NCBI RefSeq assembly: GCF_000015725.1
Contig: NC_008825.1
Span: 744,001-808,000 of the forward strand
Direction: 5' to 3'
DNA length: 64,000 nucleotides
From: Methylibium petroleiphilum PM1
Lineage (GTDB): Bacteria > Pseudomonadota > Gammaproteobacteria > Burkholderiales > Burkholderiaceae_C
In this document: positions 7,656-60,563 of the stretch, piece after piece
How the letters are laid out: the number at the start of each line of letters is the position of its first letter
Numbering within the stretch: the first letter of the stretch is position 1
Notes under the pieces: generated by a model
What the model was told of the DNA's origin: nothing
Databases searched by the model: none
What the model saw: only the letters and a program-made list of their open reading frames with translations
Program-made: the position numbers and the translations under genes

Positions 7656-9017
7656 ATGCACAGCCTCTCCACCACGGCCCCGTTCGACGCCCAGGCGCCG
7701 CTGGACGCTGCCGACACGCGGCACCAGGGCCGGGCGCTGCGCGGCGCCATCGTGTTCCTGCTGCTCTCCACCACCGTGCTGCAGCGCTTCGGGCTGAACT
7801 TCGGCAGCTATTCGGCCAACGTCACCTTGCTGGCGATGTTCGGCGTGCTCGGCGTGGCGCTGGCATCCAGCCGGCTGAGCTTTGCGGTCGAGCGCGTGTT
7901 CCTCTACGTGCTGTGCATCGCCGTCGCGGCGGCCAGCATGCTGACCAACCTGAACTTCTCGCAGATCGACCGTTCGTCGTTCTCGTCGCTGCTGCTGCTG
8001 GTGGTGATGTTCGTGCCCTTCCTGTTCGTCCTCAAGCCCGACCCCACCGGTCGCAACGACGCCGACTGGGTGATGCGCTGCTTCTCCAACATCGCGCTGT
8101 TCTGCGCTTTCGCGGGCATCGCGCAGTTCTTCACCCAATTCGTGATGAAGCCCCCGTGGCTGTTCGACTTCACCGAATCCATTCCCTTCATCCTGCGAGG
8201 GCCGAGCGGATTCAACACCGTCATCCCGGTCGGTTCGCTGTTCAAGTCCAACGGTTTCTTCTTCCGCGAGCCGTCGGGCTTCTCGTTCACCATGGCGTTC
8301 GCGCTGCTGGTCGAGGTGGCGCTCTACAAGCGCCTGCCGCGCATCGGCGCGTTCGCGCTGGCACTGCTGCTCACCTATTCGGGCACCGGCATCCTGGCGC
8401 TGTTCATCGGCTTGCTGTTCCCGCTGGGCCTGCGCACGGTGCTGCGGCTGGGCGCGGTGGCGCTGGTCGGCGGCCTGGCGGTGCTGGTGCTGGGCGACGC
8501 ACTGAACCTGTCGTTCACGCTCGGCCGCATCGGCGAGTTCGGCTCCGAGCGCAGCAGCGCCTACATCCGCTACATCGCGCCTTTCCGCGTCATCGCCGAC
8601 ACGATGATGAGCGACGCCTGGAGCTTCTGGCTGGGCCACGGGCCCGGCACCATCTACCGGCTCGGCCCGTCGTCGTCCTACGACTTCCACGACCCCACCT
8701 GGGCCAAGCTGCTGTTCGAGTACGGCCTTCTGGGCTTCGTCGCCTTCGTGGCGCTGTTTGCCACGGCCTTGTACCGGCCGCGCGTGCCCCAGCAACTGCG
8801 TGCCGTGCTGTTCTTCTCGTGGCTGCTGATGGGCGGGCACCTGCTGACACCGGAAAACAACTACATGACGCTGGTGCTGGTCGGCCTGATGCCGCTGGCC
8901 GGCGTGGCGCTGGGCCGGCGCGTCGTGACCGAAGCGTCCGCAGATGCCGATGCGGCAGCTTCGTCGCCGCCGGACCCCACGATGGTCGCCAAGCCAAGCG
9001 GAACCGAAACGAGATGA
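7656..9017 (+). CDS. O-antigen ligase / Wzy-like polysaccharide polymerase
   Basis: Polytopic membrane protein of 453 residues with about eleven hydrophobic segments, matching the O-antigen ligase/polymerase (Wzy_C) family. The central block LALLLTYSGTGILALFIGLLF and the large periplasmic loop with FWLGHGPGTIYRLGPSSS followed by WAKLLFEYGLLGFVAF are typical. It is the best candidate for polymerising the flipped repeat units, working with the Wzx-type flippase at 13365-14882 and the chain-length pair EpsF/EpsG. The last 30 residues are charged and alanine-rich. Its stop overlaps the next glycosyltransferase start (ATGA at 9014-9017). Confidence 0.82.
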   Translation: MHSLSTTAPFDAQAPLDAADTRHQGRALRGAIVFLLLSTTVLQRFGLNFGSYSANVTLLAMFGVLGVALASSRLSFAVERVFLYVLCIAVAAASMLTNLNFSQIDRSSFSSLLLLVVMFVPFLFVLKPDPTGRNDADWVMRCFSNIALFCAFAGIAQFFTQFVMKPPWLFDFTESIPFILRGPSGFNTVIPVGSLFKSNGFFFREPSGFSFTMAFALLVEVALYKRLPRIGAFALALLLTYSGTGILALFIGLLFPLGLRTVLRLGAVALVGGLAVLVLGDALNLSFTLGRIGEFGSERSSAYIRYIAPFRVIADTMMSDAWSFWLGHGPGTIYRLGPSSSYDFHDPTWAKLLFEYGLLGFVAFVALFATALYRPRVPQQLRAVLFFSWLLMGGHLLTPENNYMTLVLVGLMPLAGVALGRRVVTEASADADAAASSPPDPTMVAKPSGTETR

Positions 9018-49398: not shown

Positions 49399-49604
49399 GA
49401 TGGGGGTCCGTCAGAAGAAGGAATGAAGGAAGGAGCCGCCAGTGTTGCGAGCCACCGCCGCGCCGGCATCGCTCCGGAGAGCCATGGCGCCATCGCCGCA
49501 CGCGGATGGCTCTTCGCGCCGCGGCGGCGTGCCGGCTTCCTAGAATCGGGCAGCCTTCCGCGCTGTTGCGGTGGCCGCTGCCGCCGCCGCTGTCGCTGCT
49601 GTCC

Positions 49605-52265
49605 ATGGACAACACCCGCAACGCCTCCGCTGCCCCCGCCTCCAGCAAGCACCGCATCCCGCGCGCACGGCGCGACGTGGTGCCGCGCCCGGCGCTGCTG
49701 GCGCCGGTGCTGGAGCAGGCGGCCGACGCCCGGCTGGTGCTGGTGCAGGCGCCGGCCGGCTTCGGCAAGACCACGCTGCTGGTGCAGCTGGCCGCAGCGC
49801 TGGCGACGGCCGCGTCCGGCGCGCAGGTGGTGTGGGTCTCGCTCGATGCCGAGGACAACGACGCCAACCGCCTGTTCGCGGCGCTGTTCGGGGCGCTCGC
49901 GCCGCTCGATCTGCCGTGGGCCGTGCCGCCCGCCACGGTGCTGGCCCAGTTGCAGGACGCCAGCCCCGCCGCGCGCACCGCGCTGGGCCTGCTGACCGAC
50001 GCGCTCGGGGTCCGGCCCGAGTCGCGCATCGCGCTGGTGCTGGACGACCTTCACCACGTCACCGACGCGGCGGCGCTGCAGCTGCTCGACACGCTGATCG
50101 CCCGCGCGCCGCCGGAGCTCTGTCTCCTCATCGGCAGCCGCACCGCGCCGCCGCTGTCGCTGGCGCGCTGGCGTGCCGGCGGCGAGCTGGTGGAGCTGGG
50201 CCTGGAGGACCTGCGATTCGACCTCGGCGCTGCGCAGGCGCTGTGCCGGCTGCGCGGGCTGCAGGCGCCGTCCGACGCGGCGCTGCAGGCCGCGCTCGCT
50301 CGCACCCACGGCTGGGTGGCCGGCCTGCACCTGCTGCTGGGCAGCGCGCGCGCCGGCACGGGCAGCCTGCCCGCGCTCGCCGGTCCGGCGGCCCACCGCC
50401 ACCTGTTCGACTATTTCGCGCAGGAGGTGCTGGCCGGGCTGCCGCCGCCGCTGCAGCAGTTCGTGCTGTACGGCAGCGTGCTGCCCGAGCTCAGCCCCGC
50501 GCTGTGCCAGGCCGTCACCGGCCGCGACGACGCCCGCGCGGTGCTCGACGACCTGTTCGGTCGCCAGCTCTTCCTCAGCGCGCTCGACGACACCGTGCCG
50601 GTGCTGCGCTTCCACGACCTGTTCCGCGATTTCCTGCGCGGCGAGCTGGAGCGGCGCGAGCCCGGGCACGCCGCCGCGCTGCATGCGCTGGCCGCTGCCG
50701 CCGAGACGCGCGCCGAGCGCGCCGTGCCGCACTGGCTGGCCGCCGGGCGCTGGGCCGAGGCCCTGGCCGCACTGCGCCAGATGGCCGACGGCCTGCTGGC
50801 CGTGGGCGGCACGCACCGCCTGGAGCGCTGGCTGGATCAGTTGCCGCTGGCGTGGCGCGAGGCGCAGGCCGACGCGGCGCTGCTGCGCGGCCTGTGCGCG
50901 TGGTCGCGCTGGGACTGGGGCCTGGCCCGCGACGAATTCCAGCGCAGCCACGACGCCTATGCGCAGCAAGGCCGGCCGCGCGATCGCTACGTTGCGCTGG
51001 GCATGCTGGGTGCCTGCCACAACGCGCTGGGCGAGCTGGACCGGGCCGAGGCCGTGCTCGCCGACGCGGCCGACGCACCGCTGCCGCCGGCGCTGCAGGT
51101 GGCCTTCGATTCGCTGCAGGCCTGGCACGGCGTGGCGCGCGGCGACGGCGCAGCCGTGCTGACCGGCCTTGCCGCGATGGCCGACAACGCGGCGCGGGCC
51201 CCCGAGGCGCGCTACCCGAACATCGTCGACATGAGCTACGGGCACTTCACCGGCCTGCCCGGCACGCGACCGCTGATGGAGCGGCTGGGCCGGCTGTGCC
51301 GCGCCGACCAGCCGGGCGGCGAGGTGCAGGTGCCGGCGCTGCATGCCTGGCTGGCGTTCTGGCACGGCGAGCCCGGCACGGCCCGCGAGGCCTTACACGA
51401 GCTGCTGCAGCGGCAGCGCCAGCTGCCCGGCGACACCATGCTCGGCATCGGCGCGCTGCACCTGCACAGCCTGCACCTCGCCGCGCAGGGCCACACGGCC
51501 GAGGCGCTGGCCGCCATCGCCCAGGTGCCCGCTCTCATGACGCCGGGTTTCAGCCGGGGCTGGCGGCGCACCTATGCGCATGTGCAGGCCCGCCTCCACT
51601 GGCGCGCCGGGGACGCCGACGGCCTGGCCGCGCTGCTGCCCGATCTGTCGCGGCCGCGCTCGGCGCGCGAATGGCCGGTGCTGGACACCGGCGCCCCGCT
51701 GCTGCAGGGCCAGCATGCGCTGCTGTGCGGTGAGCTGGCCGCAGCGCGCGCGCACCTGGAGCGCGCCGCGCTGCTGCAGGCTGGCGCGCGGCTGCCGGCC
51801 TTCATGGGCGACGCCCGCTGCGCGCTGGCGCTGTGCCGCGCCGCGCAGGGCGAGCCCGAGGCGGCCGCCGCAGCGCTGGACGATCTGCTGTGCGAGGCGG
51901 TGCAGGACGACGGCCTCGGCAGCCTGCTGCTGGAGCCGCCGGCCCGGCTGCAGGCGCTGTGGCAGGCGCTGGCGCCGCGCCTGCGCTGCCCGGCCGCGGC
52001 GCAGGCCCGGCTGCGCGGCCGCCTCGCGGCCTGGCTGGCCGAGGGCCCGCGCGCCGCCGTGGCCGACGCAGCGCCGCCGGACGATCCGCTGTCGGCCCGC
52101 GAGCGCGAGGTGATGGCCCTGCTGGCCGAGGGCCAGAGCAACAAGCTCATCGCCCGCGCGCTCGGCCTCAGCCTGCACACCGTGAAGCGTCACGTGGCCA
52201 ACATCCTCACCAAGCTGGCGCTCGACAGCCGCACCCAGGCGGCGGCCTACTGGCACCGGCGCTGA
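49605..52265 (+). CDS. MalT-like ATP-dependent LuxR-family regulator
   Basis: Large regulator of 886 residues with the MalT/LAL plan. An N-terminal NTPase domain has Walker A VQAPAGFGKTTLLVQL (near residue 45-60) and Walker B-like IALVLDDLHHVTD. A long helical repeat (TPR-like) region follows at about 330-800. The C-terminal LuxR helix-turn-helix is LSAREREVMALLAEGQSNKLIARALGLSLHTVKRHVANILTKL (about 828-872). It would be activated by ATP and an inducer and bind DNA as an oligomer. The ATG at 49605 is used; earlier in-frame starts are possible. A structured repeat element begins 19 bp after its stop. Targets are unknown. Confidence 0.88.
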   Translation: MDNTRNASAAPASSKHRIPRARRDVVPRPALLAPVLEQAADARLVLVQAPAGFGKTTLLVQLAAALATAASGAQVVWVSLDAEDNDANRLFAALFGALAPLDLPWAVPPATVLAQLQDASPAARTALGLLTDALGVRPESRIALVLDDLHHVTDAAALQLLDTLIARAPPELCLLIGSRTAPPLSLARWRAGGELVELGLEDLRFDLGAAQALCRLRGLQAPSDAALQAALARTHGWVAGLHLLLGSARAGTGSLPALAGPAAHRHLFDYFAQEVLAGLPPPLQQFVLYGSVLPELSPALCQAVTGRDDARAVLDDLFGRQLFLSALDDTVPVLRFHDLFRDFLRGELERREPGHAAALHALAAAAETRAERAVPHWLAAGRWAEALAALRQMADGLLAVGGTHRLERWLDQLPLAWREAQADAALLRGLCAWSRWDWGLARDEFQRSHDAYAQQGRPRDRYVALGMLGACHNALGELDRAEAVLADAADAPLPPALQVAFDSLQAWHGVARGDGAAVLTGLAAMADNAARAPEARYPNIVDMSYGHFTGLPGTRPLMERLGRLCRADQPGGEVQVPALHAWLAFWHGEPGTAREALHELLQRQRQLPGDTMLGIGALHLHSLHLAAQGHTAEALAAIAQVPALMTPGFSRGWRRTYAHVQARLHWRAGDADGLAALLPDLSRPRSAREWPVLDTGAPLLQGQHALLCGELAAARAHLERAALLQAGARLPAFMGDARCALALCRAAQGEPEAAAAALDDLLCEAVQDDGLGSLLLEPPARLQALWQALAPRLRCPAAAQARLRGRLAAWLAEGPRAAVADAAPPDDPLSAREREVMALLAEGQSNKLIARALGLSLHTVKRHVANILTKLALDSRTQAAAYWHRR

Positions 52266-52284: not shown

Positions 52285-52515
52285 CGCTGCAGGCGCTGCC
52301 CGCTGGGGGCTCCTGCTGGGGCGGTCGGCCTGGCAGGCCGACTGCACTGCGATGCTCGCGCCAGGGTCGTGCCGCAGAACTCACTGCGCGCCCTGCGGTC
52401 GCTCCGTTCAGACAACCGCGGCAAGTCGGTTCACGAAGCGCGCTGGCGCGCGCCGACCCTGGCGCTGTGCTTCTCGTCGCCCCAGACATCGCCCCAGCGG
52501 ACAGCGCCTGCCGCG
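52285..52515 (+). repeat. Structured intergenic repeat, copy A
   Basis: First of four related elements (A-D). It folds through five complementary parts. P1 closes it: 52285-52309 with 52491-52515 (22 of 25 paired), plus CTGGGGC/GCCCCAG inside. P2 is a hairpin, GTCGGCCT-GGC-AGGCCGAC (52324-52342). Then comes a conserved strand TGCACTGCGATGCTCG (52343-52358). P3 is GCGCCAGGGTCG (52358-52369) with CGACCCTGGCGC (52454-52465), a perfect 12-bp match. P4, TGCCGC/GCGGCA, encloses a 38-base core (52378-52415) that begins AACTC and ends GACAA. P5 is GCGCGC-TG-GCGCGC. It lies 19 bp after the regulator stop and is tail-to-tail with copy D. Confidence 0.85.
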
Positions 52516-52561
52516 ACCACCACCGGTGTTGGCGTGCGCGGGAAACACTCGCAGTGGTTCA

Positions 52562-52689
52562 GCAAAGGCGGGCTCGGGCAGGCGGCGGTGCGCCTCCGAG
52601 GCGCCGCGAGACCGAGCATCGCAGGGGAGTCGGCGCCCGGCGCCGACCAGCGAGGCGAAGCACCGTCGCCTGCCCGGGCGCGCCTTTGC
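52562..52689 (-). repeat. Structured intergenic repeat, copy D (core-less)
   Basis: Short member of the A-D family, in opposite orientation to A and 46 bp from it. Its closing arms are 28 bases each (52562-52589 and 52662-52689, 25 of 28 paired) with a sequence unlike the arms of A, B or C. The P2 hairpin GTCGGCGC-CGG-GCGCCGAC (52629-52647) and the conserved strand, TCCCCTGCGATGCTCG on the minus strand, are kept. The 38-base core and P3-P5 are missing and replaced by a small hairpin, GCGCCT-CCG-AGGCGC (52590-52604). Confidence 0.8.
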
Positions 52690-56743: not shown

Positions 56744-57841
56744 TCACGTTCCCCCGCCCTCGACCTTCAACTGCACCGGCGCCGCCGGCCCGGCCGGGGG
56801 CCTGAGCTTCACCGCGGCGGCGCGCCAGTCGATGCCGCGCAGCGCCTCGCTGGCGAGGATCAGCACGAAGGCGATGCCCTGCAGCACCTGCACCGAGGCG
56901 TCGGGCAGATCGAGCCGGCGCTGCAGCAGGCTGCCGGCCGCGCCGAAGCCACCGAACAGGATGGCGACCGGGATCACGGCGATCGGGTTGTGCCGTGCGA
57001 TGAAGCTCACCAGGATGCCCGCGTAGCCGTAGCCGGCGATGATGGAAGCGTTGGCATTGGTGTGCACCGCGGCCACCTCGATCGCGCCGGCCAGCCCGGC
57101 GCAGGCGCCGCCGATCGCGCAGGCGATCAGGATCAGCCCGCTGGCCGGCAGGCCCACCAACTGCGCGGTGCGCGGGTTGCCGCCGACCACGCGCACCGCG
57201 AAGCCGCGCGCGGTGAGCGCGAGCCACAGGCCCAGCACCGCGCAGGCCAGCAGGCCCAGCACCAGGCCCCAGTGCACGTCGGAGCCGAACATGCCGCCGA
57301 TGCGGATGCCTTCGTCCAGCGCGCGCGTGGACGGCTTGTTCAGCGTGGCCGGGTCACGCAGCGGGCCCTCGACGATCTGCTTGAACAGTGCGATCGCGAT
57401 GTAGGCGAGCAGCAGGCTGCTGATGGTCTCGTTGACGCCGCGGTACTGCCGCAGCGCACCGGCCAGCGCGATCCACGCGGCGCCGGCCGCCATGCCGGCC
57501 GCGCAGACCAGCACGGTGCCGATCACGTTGCCCGGCAGCGGCACCGCGTAAGGCAGCGCCGCTGCGGCCAGGCCGCCGAGCACCAGCGCACCTTCGCCGC
57601 CGATGATCACCAGGCCGGCACGCGCCGGCAGCGCGACGCACAGCGCAGTGAGCATCAGCGGCGCGGCGCGCTGCAGCGTGTTCTGCCACGAGAACCAGTC
57701 GCCGAAGGCGCCCTTGAACAGCAGCACCCAGACCTCGACCGGGTCGGTGCCACCGAACCACACGAACACGCCGAACAGCAGCAGCGCGGCGGCCAGCGCG
57801 CCGATCGGCAGCAGGATGTCGGCGAGGGCGGTGCTGCGCAT
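56744..57841 (-). CDS. ABC transporter permease, BMP/nucleoside type
   Basis: Inner-membrane permease of 365 residues, longer partner of the pair, with eight or more membrane segments. Family blocks are ALPARAGLVIIGGEGALVLGGLAAAALPY, RGVNETISSLLLAYIAIALFKQIVEGPL, and VAAVHTNANASIIAGYGYAGILVSFIARHNPIAVIPVAILFGGFGAAG, typical of the nucleoside-type permease. It begins with the ATG at 57841. Unlike the other genes in this run it is separated from the upstream binding-protein gene by 608 bp containing repeat copies B and C. Confidence 0.9.
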   Translation of the reverse strand: MRSTALADILLPIGALAAALLLFGVFVWFGGTDPVEVWVLLFKGAFGDWFSWQNTLQRAAPLMLTALCVALPARAGLVIIGGEGALVLGGLAAAALPYAVPLPGNVIGTVLVCAAGMAAGAAWIALAGALRQYRGVNETISSLLLAYIAIALFKQIVEGPLRDPATLNKPSTRALDEGIRIGGMFGSDVHWGLVLGLLACAVLGLWLALTARGFAVRVVGGNPRTAQLVGLPASGLILIACAIGGACAGLAGAIEVAAVHTNANASIIAGYGYAGILVSFIARHNPIAVIPVAILFGGFGAAGSLLQRRLDLPDASVQVLQGIAFVLILASEALRGIDWRAAAVKLRPPAGPAAPVQLKVEGGGT

Positions 57842-57877: not shown

Positions 57878-58112
57878 GGCGCGGCAGGCGGTGGGCGCCG
57901 GGGCGGTGATGGGGTGCGGTCGGCGCGCTGCGCCGACTGCGCTGCGGTGCGCGGGCCGCAGGCGCGTCGCGCAACTCGCTCTGTTCGCTGCGCTCACGGC
58001 GCTCGGACAAGCGCGACGGATCGGATCACGATGCGCGCTGCGCGCGCCGCCTGCGACCCTGTGCTCCTCGCCGCACCCCGGCACCGCCCCGGCGCCCACC
58101 GCCTGCCGCGCC
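57878..58112 (+). repeat. Structured intergenic repeat, copy B
   Basis: Second full-length member of the family, inside the transporter gene run. P1 arms are 42 bases each (57878-57919 and 58071-58112, 40 of 42 paired). P2 is GTCGGCGC-GCT-GCGCCGAC (57919-57937), then the conserved strand TGCGCTGCGGTGCGCG. P3 is CGCAGGCG (57957-57964) with CGCCTGCG (58048-58055). P4 is CGTCGCGC (57965-57972) with GCGCGACG (58011-58018), enclosing a core of exactly 38 bases (57973-58010) that again begins AACTC and ends GACAA. P5 is GCGCGC-TGC-GCGCGC. No ORF, T-run or target duplication was found. Confidence 0.87.
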
Positions 58113-58159
58113 GAACCCTCGGTGGCGGACGATCGCGGCGCGGCACCGATGTCTCTGCC

Positions 58160-58392
58160 GGGGTGTGGCCGGCCGTTCCGGGGGGCGCGTGAGAGGCGCC
58201 GAGGCGCGCAGGGTGCGTGGCTGGCGCGCGCAGCGCGCCTCGTGGACTGACTGGCCGCGGTTGTCCGAGCGCCGTTCGCGCAGCGAACAGAGCGAGTTCC
58301 GCGGCCCGGCCAGGCAGCCGAGCACCGCAGGGGAGCCGGCGCCGTGCGCCGGCCGCCGAACCCGCGCCCCCTGGCCCGGCCGGCCACGCCCC
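58160..58392 (-). repeat. Structured intergenic repeat, copy C
   Basis: Third full-length member, inverted relative to copy B and 47 bp from it. P1 arms are 58160-58189 and 58363-58392 (26 of 30 paired). P2 is GCCGGCGC with GCGCCGGC around a triloop (58335-58353). On the minus strand the conserved strand is TCCCCTGCGGTGCTCG. P4 is GCCGCGG with CCGCGGC (58299-58305 and 58254-58260), enclosing the 38-base core (58261-58298). Inside the core, GTTCG-CTGCG-CGAAC forms a further hairpin. P5 is GGCGCGC-TGC-GCGCGCC. P3 is weak in this copy. Confidence 0.87.
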
Positions 58393-58449
58393 GGCCGCTC
58401 GCCACGAGCAGGAACCTGAGCGAATCAGCACCCATGATCCGCGCCCACC

Positions 58450-59574
58450 TCAGATCGACCCGACCACACCCTCGACCAGGTAGTTCATCTTCTCGAGCTC
58501 GAGGTCGGTCTGCTTCAGCACCTTGCCGGCCGGGATGACCACCGCGCCCTTGTTGTCCTTCAGGCCGCCGGTGAAGATGTCGAACGAGCCGGCGATCATC
58601 TTGGCCTTGATGCCGTCGGCGGCCGTCTTCGCGGCCTCCGGCACCATCGGGCCGTAGGCCGACATCTTCACGTAGCCTTCCTTCAGGCCGCCGCGCAGGA
58701 AGTTCGGGTGCGGCTTGCCGGCCTGCGCCGCCTCGATGATGGTCTTGTAGGCGGTGAGCCAGTTCCACTCGGCGCCGGTCAGGTAGGCATTGGGCGCGAG
58801 CTTGGCCTGGCTGGCGTGGTAGCCGCAGACCATCTTGCCGCGCTTGGCGGCGGTCTCGACGATGACCTTCGGTCCGTCGACGTGCATCGTGAACACGTCG
58901 GCACCCTGGTCGGCCAGGCTGTTGGTGGCCTCGGCCTCCTTGACGGCCATCGACCACTCGCCGGTAAAGATGACCGTGCAGGTGATCTTGGGGTCGACCG
59001 AGCGCGCGCCCATCGTGAAGGCGTTGATGTTGCGCAGCACCTGCGGGATCGGCTTGGCGGCCACGAAGCCGAGCTTCTTGCTCTTGCTCATGTGGCCGGC
59101 GATCACGCCGTTGAGGTACTGGCACTCGTCGATGTAGCCGAAGAAGCTGCCGGTGTTCTTGGGGTGCTTGCCCTCGGTCCACATGCCGCCGCAGTGCGAG
59201 AAGCGCACGTCGGGGTACTTGGCGGCGAGCGCGAGCATGTGCGGGTCGAAGTAGCCGAACGAGGTGGGGAACAGCAGCTTGGCGCCGTCCTGCACGATCA
59301 TGCCGGTCATGGTCTTCTGCACCGCGGTGGTCTCAGGGACGTTCTCCTCCTCGACGACCTTGATGCCGGGCAGCTTCTTGACCTCGGCCGCGGCGGCGGC
59401 CTGCGCCTGGTTGTAGCCGAAGTCGTCCTTCGGGCCGACGTAGATCACGCCGATGGTCATCTTGGTCTGGGCCTGCGCGGCGCGCAGTGCCCACGGCGAG
59501 GCGGTGGCCAGGCCGGCGGCCGACAGTTGCGCCAGGGCGCGGCGGCGGGAGGCCCGGAAATCGTGTTGCGTCAT
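58450..59574 (-). CDS. BMP-family ABC transporter substrate-binding protein
   Basis: Periplasmic binding protein of 374 residues in the basic membrane protein (BMP) family, which mostly binds nucleosides or other small N-containing compounds. The N terminus has a twin-arginine-like signal SRRRALAQLSAAGLATAS, cut near AQA at about residue 36. Mature motifs include TIGVIYVGPKDDFGYNQAQA, FATSFGYFDPHMLALAAKYPDV-like LLFPTSFGYFDPHML, FFGYIDECQYLNGVIAGHMSKSKKLG, GADVFTMHVDGPKVI and the C-terminal LEKMNYLVEGVVGSI. The ATG at 59574 has GGAAGAAGGA upstream. With the hydrolases nearby, a ureide such as biuret or triuret is the likely ligand. Confidence 0.92.
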   Translation of the reverse strand: MTQHDFRASRRRALAQLSAAGLATASPWALRAAQAQTKMTIGVIYVGPKDDFGYNQAQAAAAAEVKKLPGIKVVEEENVPETTAVQKTMTGMIVQDGAKLLFPTSFGYFDPHMLALAAKYPDVRFSHCGGMWTEGKHPKNTGSFFGYIDECQYLNGVIAGHMSKSKKLGFVAAKPIPQVLRNINAFTMGARSVDPKITCTVIFTGEWSMAVKEAEATNSLADQGADVFTMHVDGPKVIVETAAKRGKMVCGYHASQAKLAPNAYLTGAEWNWLTAYKTIIEAAQAGKPHPNFLRGGLKEGYVKMSAYGPMVPEAAKTAADGIKAKMIAGSFDIFTGGLKDNKGAVVIPAGKVLKQTDLELEKMNYLVEGVVGSI

Positions 59575-59795
59575 GGTTCCTTCTTCCTCGATGTGGATGG
59601 CACGGCAGCAGCGGGGCGGGGCATCCGCAACCGGCGTGGCCGGTCTTGGTGCACGCATTGGTATACAAGATGGAATACGCAAATGCCGTGCCTGCGGCGG
59701 GCCGCCGGAGCGGCGGTGCGGACGGGCCGCAAGGACGGCGCGCAGCCCGGCCCCGGCGCCCGGCGGCGCCGCGTGCGGTGAGGGGAGGACGGCCG

Positions 59796-60563
59796 TCAGC
59801 GCGCGAGCTGCGCGCGGGCCTGCTGGAGCATCGCCAGCGTGATCTTGCGGACCTCGGACTTGCTCTGCTCGACGTGGCTGCGCAGCAGCAGCTGGGCCTG
59901 GTCGAGCTTGCGCTGCATCACTGCGCGCAGGATCTTGGCGTGCTCGGTGTAGGTGGCGTCGATGCGGTCGCCGCGCGTGAAATCGAGCCGGCGGATGATG
60001 CGGATGCGCTCGGTCACGTCCCAGTGCACGCGGGCGATCTCGGTGTTGCCGGCGGCGCGCACCAGCGTGGCGTGGAACTGCTCGTCGAGTGCACCGACTT
60101 CGCGCCCGTCGCTCAGGCGCTCGGCGGCCGGCAGCAGCCAGGTCTTCTTCAGCGCGTCGAGCTCGGGCGAAGAGTCGTCGGCACGGGCGCACAGCTTGGC
60201 CACGCTGGCGAGTTCGAGCAGCACGCGCAGGTCGTAGAGCTGCTCGAGCTTGTCGAAATCGATCGGCCGGACGTACCAGCCCGATTTCGACTCCACTTCG
60301 AGGAAGCCCTCGTTGCGCAGCCGGAACAGCGCCTCGCGCACCGGGGTGCGGCTGACGCCGAGGCGGGTGCCGATCTCGGCCTCGGAGAAGCGGTCACCGG
60401 GCACCAGCAGGAAGTCGTGGATCTCGGCCTTGAGCCGGGCGTAGGCCTGCTCGGCGAGGTTGCTGCGCACCGCGGTGGCGGGCAGCGTGGTGGCCGGGGC
60501 CGCGGCGGTGGCGCGCGCGCGGGAGGCGGCGGTTGCGGGACGGCGGGCGGGACGCGTGCTCAT
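59796..60563 (-). CDS. GntR-family regulator (FCD domain)
   Basis: FadR-type GntR regulator of 255 residues. The winged helix is LAEQAYARLKAEIHDFLLVPGDRFSEAEIGTRLGVSRTPVREALFRLRNEGFL (about 35-88), followed by an FCD effector domain (about 105-240) with LYDLRVLLELASVAKL and LDEQFHATLVRAAGN. The first 30 residues are an Ala/Arg-rich tail. It lies 27 bp downstream of the AtzH-like gene and before the transporter genes, so it is the likely local regulator of the cluster, responding to a pathway intermediate. Its operator was not identified. Confidence 0.9.
   Translation of the reverse strand: MSTRPARRPATAASRARATAAAPATTLPATAVRSNLAEQAYARLKAEIHDFLLVPGDRFSEAEIGTRLGVSRTPVREALFRLRNEGFLEVESKSGWYVRPIDFDKLEQLYDLRVLLELASVAKLCARADDSSPELDALKKTWLLPAAERLSDGREVGALDEQFHATLVRAAGNTEIARVHWDVTERIRIIRRLDFTRGDRIDATYTEHAKILRAVMQRKLDQAQLLLRSHVEQSKSEVRKITLAMLQQARAQLAR

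Follow-up and report, generated by a model that had tools for sequence, protein, structure and literature searches.

Inverted pairs of two folded repeat arms in Methylibium petroleiphilum PM1 and its relatives appear to be small mobile DNA elements of an unnamed family

The inverted X/Y repeat pairs described here, two of which are located in a 64,000-bp stretch of the Methylibium petroleiphilum PM1 chromosome (hereafter the window), resemble small mobile DNA elements and appear to form a family that has not been named. Sequence comparison strongly supports that the pair, and not the single arm, is the unit that is inherited and copied. No paper with a name for the X/Y repeat turned up in full-text literature searches or in a search with the letters of its conserved core.

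The two pairs in the window

The features of the window are listed in Table 1. An initial annotation had described four repeat copies, A to D, as tail-to-tail inverted pairs with near-identical spacing. The arrangement of A with D and of B with C is confirmed by reading the sequence, since both pairs have their 3' ends turned towards each other. The spacing is indeed near-identical, the 46 bp given for A-D being in fact 47 bp, the same value as in B-C. The internally folded units of 128-235 bp that had been reported are branched hairpins, which measure 128-239 bp in the window. That D is truncated, and that A/B and C/D represent two distinct arm types, had been missed. The likeness between A and D within the window is weak (36-nt inverted matches, 78-86%) because the core of D has been lost.

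The A-D pair follows the end of a LuxR/MalT-like gene, with a convergent hydrolase gene on its other side, and B-C is located between the genes for a BMP-family solute-binding protein and a permease, both of which run in the same direction.

Table 1. Repeat arms, spacers and neighbouring genes in the window (positions counted from its first base)
Feature	Position	Strand	Description
Copy A, Y-type arm	52286..52514	+	229 bp; branched hairpin with outer stem GCNGCAGGCGCTG...CAGCGCCTGCCGC
A-D spacer	52515..52561	no strand	47 bp; weak hairpin possible (ACCAC...GTGGT)
Copy D, X-type arm	52562..52689	-	128 bp; central stem-loops deleted; outer stem GCAAAGGCG...CGCCTTTGC left
Copy B, Y-type arm	57881..58109	+	229 bp; near-perfect 26-bp outer stem
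B-C spacer	58110..58156	no strand	47 bp
Copy C, X-type arm	58157..58395	-	239 bp, full length; in the X clade of the arm tree
LuxR/MalT-like regulator gene	49506..52265	+	ends just before A-D; role judged from translation
ABC transporter permease gene	56744..57841	-	adjoins B-C; role judged from translation
ORF with BMP-family solute-binding protein gene	58450..60192	-	other side of B-C; true start inside the ORF

Other copies in Methylibium and decay of the arms

The PM1 genome (G000) consists of a chromosome of 4,044,195 bp, of which the window covers positions 744,001-808,000, and a second replicon of 599,444 bp. It contains only five long arms: A, B, C, a copy of A at C1:32214 (95% identical) and one arm at C1:817321. 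The copy of A is followed by a D-like arm, giving a second pair (C1:32214-32583) in which the 47-bp spacer is kept. Therefore, A and D were copied together as a unit.

In Methylibium sp. Root1272 (G001), the ortholog of A-D (L092:7724-7910 and 8093-8279) has a full-length partner arm, which carries the approximately 110 bp missing from D. By this comparison, copy D is a deletion derivative of a full X arm that has lost its central stem-loops. The spacer of the ortholog (L092, 7910 to 8093) is enlarged by a tandem repeat of about 26 bp (CTCCACCATCGGTGGCCTGTCGCGAT). Copy B has a 97% identical ortholog in Root1272. The locus at 817321 is a complete pair in Root1272 (L091), and in PM1 its X arm is deleted, part of the outer stem being left; the partner arms at the remaining A-like loci of both genomes represent further deletion states. 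Since the same loci are occupied in PM1 and Root1272, the Methylibium copies look old.

In Rhizobacter sp. Root404 (L146:4090-4450), a Y arm and the remnant of an X stem are present in the same bmpA-permease gap as B-C. The orientation of the arms is apparently opposite to that of B-C, which suggests that they derive from independent events.

Two arm types

Clustering of the arms within seven genomes showed that each of 48 pairs is composed of one X and one Y arm (48/48). The probability of this composition under random pairing ranges from 0.0002 in G010 to 0.4 in those genomes that have just three pairs. Arms of one type share 71-93% identity and X and Y arms 59-67%, the latter being equal for partners and non-partners. 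Gene conversion within pairs was considered as a source of similarity and rejected, since X-Y identity is not higher within pairs.

In a tree of arms from ten genomes and the window, a single split parts both arms in 39 of 44 pairs; G026, G136 and G099 deviate from it. On the basis of this split, the divergence of the X and Y types is placed before that of most of the genera sampled.

The pair as the unit

Among relatives, all 57 arm pairs less than 400 bp apart are tail to tail and none is head to head or direct, so that the same ends always face each other, as had been noted in the window. If each pair had a one-in-four chance of this orientation, the probability of such a result would be 0.25^57. 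A predicted enrichment of spacings of 40-55 bp holds for the main mode; G010, G124 and G126 also show secondary modes, in which the spacing exceeds the main one by about 40 bp and 90 bp, and a minority of the arms have no partner. Between cores, the gap is 113 bp in 6/6 pairs of G119 and 117-119 bp in 12/14 pairs of G124.

The complete genome of G119 is the clearest case. Twelve of its 14 arms form six pairs, whose arms lie exactly 281 bp apart from start to start, and the two single arms are pairs with the Y arm deleted at its stem. The six pairs occupy unrelated loci and are about 90% alike over approximately 510 bp, spacer included, and the likeness ends at the outer stems. In G124, 28 of 40 arms form 14 pairs. 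Most partner arms of G126 are too diverged for the covariance model, several of them being visible by DNA profile. In several genera there are 14-54 copies or fragments per genome. The proposal that the pair, rather than the single element, is what spreads is thus strongly supported by the identity over the whole pair, the constant X+Y composition and the copying of A-D as a whole.

The single arm as the unit was rejected: the singles that were closely inspected are pairs minus one arm. Arms have been lost repeatedly, by deletions at the stem bases.

Some elements are enclosed by an outer inverted repeat (L330, L332 and L333 in G119; L120-L122 in G026; L106 in G004), for instance GCTTGCGGCCCTTTGCTGAAGTTC ... 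GAACTTCAGCAAAGGGCCGCAAGC, as if the element had been inserted in the loop of a different palindrome. This is the situation of three of the six G119 pairs.

Insertion sites, genomic context and distribution

At all three G119 loci compared with the congener G149, the insert is absent from G149 and the flanks are uninterrupted. For instance, the nifE-nifN gap is 1-3 bp long in G149 and G150 versus about 590 bp in G119, where it contains a full pair. The G119 inserts exceed the pair by 30-60 bp per side that are neither repeat nor empty-site sequence. We infer the direction of change (gain versus loss) at these polymorphic sites. In G148, the same gap (L402, G148:C9:27500-29300) carries one arm and another repeat-like stretch, a state that could reflect either repeated insertion or partial loss. 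No target-site duplication was detected among 53 pairs, direct repeats in the flanks being at the level of shuffled sequence.

In a rough gene call, co-directional genes flank 75 placements, convergent genes 28 and divergent genes 5; another 5 apparently fall within an ORF and 5 at contig edges. Those within ORFs probably correspond to false ORFs running through the repeat. Divergent promoters are therefore rarely adjoined (5 of the 108 co-directional, convergent or divergent placements, by the same rough call). In G124 (L340, L341, L343-L347), 9 of 14 pairs have the intrinsic terminator of a neighbour pointing at them within 120 bp and no terminator points away from the G124 pairs, an arrangement absent in the other genomes examined. 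Most G124 copies thus lie behind a terminator, mostly outside the transcript of the neighbour.

With the covariance model, an arm was detected in 68 of 120 genomes of the family (E <= 1e-6) and, beyond the family, in 11 other genomes among 369 of the class (E <= 1e-8). By motif, three of nine distant loci inspected (L453, L457 and L459) have a tail-to-tail pair. The distant arm relatives L453, L457 and L460 are flanked by palindromes of the AAGAAAAGTAAC / TTTCTTTTGG type. Searches of plasmids gave short partial matches only, and one search of phages gave none.

The folded arms as DNA

An alignment of 46 arms yielded 56 consensus base pairs. Several conserved blocks, AACTC-CT, TC-A-ACA, AGTCAG and GA-GCGCGC, are mostly unpaired and kept across genera. 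The stems covary, with two-sided changes in 40 of the 56 consensus pairs. The proportion of paired cells is 94.6%, compared with 76.1% when partners are shuffled and 34-46% in slid versions. Part of this excess is to be expected, as the structure itself comes from this alignment. Two-sided changes amount to 432 versus 59-82 in slid versions, a difference that such a bias would hardly explain.

An RNA under selection is expected to tolerate G-U pairs well above A-C. The 2,519 cells include 34 G-T pairs versus 49 A-C, and neither strand shows an excess of G-U. As a control, seven tRNAs of the same loci showed 13 G-U in 164 pairs; this control is small, biased towards pairing and restricted to pairs. 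Because G-U is no commoner than A-C despite the strong covariation, the substitution pattern favours an arm conserved as a Watson-Crick DNA hairpin rather than as RNA.

Genes between the arms

In three pairs of G146 (L407:1552-2350, L408:1571-2130 and L409:1601-2183), the short spacer is replaced by 560-800 bp that contain a small gene. The G+C content of these genes is 61-63% versus 68% in the surroundings. The wide-gap pairs of G146 are X+Y by their outer stems; by the core, only L408 is clearly so. Inverted pairs of same-type arms surround 0.5-1.9 kb in G082 (L406:1808-4019) and G010 (L237, L238 and L239), and in these four cases both arms are 93-98% identical and ORFs are enclosed. The idea that all wide-gap pairs are X+Y therefore did not hold, since the sequences suggest X+X for L237, L239 and L406 and Y+Y for L238.

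Pfam, NCBIfam and PHROGs gave almost no family match for the enclosed genes. The exceptions, weak and below the cut-offs, are WIF and MalM-like matches, the MalM likeness being that of one protein in the same-type pairs of G010/G082. No transposase was found between the arms in the loci inspected. These observations are suggestive of arms that carry passenger genes.

Comparison with known systems

The initial annotation had pointed out a resemblance to REPIN/BIME arrangements, which holds for the layout only. In REPIN systems, a RAYT transposase (Y1_Tnp) is encoded in the genome, usually beside a REP, and the REPs are short and carry a tag tetranucleotide. An inverted REP doublet is the replicative unit, forms hairpins and leaves singlets as decay products (PMC3116915). 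The X/Y elements are likewise intergenic, hairpin-forming inverted pairs of high copy number whose singlets are remnants. However, their multi-branched arms are about 230 bp long, in contrast to the approximately 20-40 bp of a REP, they are of two non-interchangeable types, and the same X/Y split spans many genera. Moreover, no Y1_Tnp (PF01797) match was obtained in 7 of the 13 element-bearing genomes tested (G000, G001, G119, G124, G126, G146 and G135), and four of them, G119, G124, G126 and G146, are rich in elements. The link to RAYT was therefore rejected for most element-bearing genomes tested; the Y1 transposase does not track the element. A true REPIN system, with REP doublets moved by RAYT, shares the inverted doublet but is already largely refuted by these genomes and by the size and types of the arms, and we regard it as highly improbable.

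Miniature inverted-repeat elements (MITEs) and mobile insertion cassettes are also short and transposase-free, with inverted ends, an occasional passenger gene and empty sites. The features of this kind found here are the size of about 510 bp, outer ends that are both GCGGCA-like and the three sites empty in G149. In contrast, the X/Y element ends in long folded arms of two types and lacks target duplication. With the ends of IS200/IS605 elements and the attC sites of integrons, the arms share a structure more conserved than the sequence, Watson-Crick pairing and conserved unpaired bases and, with IS200/IS605, distinct left and right ends; they differ in being much larger and in lacking a link to a Y1 transposase. 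The Beta-proteobacterial repeat element (BRE) is 75-91 bp long and tandem, and PM1 is not among its listed hosts (PMC3110155). Like the X/Y repeat, it is chromosomal, intergenic and multi-copy in Comamonadaceae; the X/Y arms are longer and inverted, and are set apart from BRE by its description, not by sequence (PMC3110155).

Proposed mechanism and alternatives

We consider it on balance probable that the pair is a mobile element that is non-autonomous, has distinct folded structures at its two ends and is moved by an enzyme encoded elsewhere. A Y arm and an X arm, inverted and joined by a short spacer, would constitute one small element. When the DNA becomes single-stranded, for instance on the lagging-strand template, both arms would fold into hairpins, which an enzyme supplied elsewhere in the genome could recognise as left and right ends. 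By analogy with the subterminal hairpins of IS200/IS605, with REPINs and with attC sites, this enzyme may move or copy the pair to other intergenic sites, and a small unrelated gene would lie between the arms of occasional copies. The near-absence of the arms from plasmids and their absence from the one phage search would be unusual for an active mobile element and count against mobility. The missing target-site duplication, the extra 30-60 bp beside the G119 inserts, the mixed state of the nifE-nifN gap in G148, the apparent age of the Methylibium copies and the fact that no mobilising gene was found also weigh against it. A bolder proposal, which we hold only tentatively, is that of an unnamed DNA superfamily reaching from Burkholderiales to further families of the class, with two non-interchangeable branched Watson-Crick hairpins as ends, moved by a single-strand recombinase and able to carry small genes.

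The pair might instead be transcribed with the neighbouring operon as a structured RNA and act between cistrons or at a 3' end (RNase III site, stabiliser or bidirectional terminator), as REP/BIME and ERIC are thought to act. The strong covariation would fit this, as would the intergenic placements, mostly downstream of genes or between co-directional ones and avoiding divergent promoter regions; B-C itself separates a solute-binding protein gene from a permease gene, and one G119 copy nifE from nifN. However, G-U is as rare as other mismatches on either strand, the G124 pairs lie just behind the terminators of their neighbours in 9 of 14 cases, and no Rfam family matched in the window at the gathering threshold, nor was there a relevant match around the pairs up to E = 5. 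We therefore judge an RNA function unlikely. Passive palindromes, whose complementarity is kept by mutation (template switching at quasi-palindromes) and which spread by rare duplication with no dedicated mobility, appear somewhat less likely still. It speaks for them that hairpins appear to form in vivo, judging from the repeated deletions at stem bases and the concerted multi-base stem changes among close copies, but no homogenisation is seen between the X and Y arms within a pair, unpaired motifs (AACTC, TCA-ACA, AGTCAG and GA-GCGCGC) are conserved across genera, spacing and X+Y composition are fixed, and the copy numbers in several genera are high. Finally, the arms could be integron-related recombination sites around small genes, the bare pairs being empty cassettes. 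This idea draws on the lower-G+C genes that replace the spacer in three G146 pairs and on the ORFs within the homotypic pairs of G010 and G082; cargo is nevertheless rare and the arms are inverted, unlike attC sites, which are direct, and a cassette origin seems very unlikely.

Significance

If the pairs are indeed mobile elements with two folded ends, inverted-doublet mobility would extend beyond REPINs and RAYTs, and a repeat family common in the chromosomes of Burkholderiales would have, as its ends, two different folded DNA structures of very large size. An undiscovered enzyme able to read DNA hairpins would also be implied. Because arms are lost at the stem bases, the family would allow hairpin formation to be tested cleanly in living cells, and it may constitute a vehicle for genes of unknown origin.
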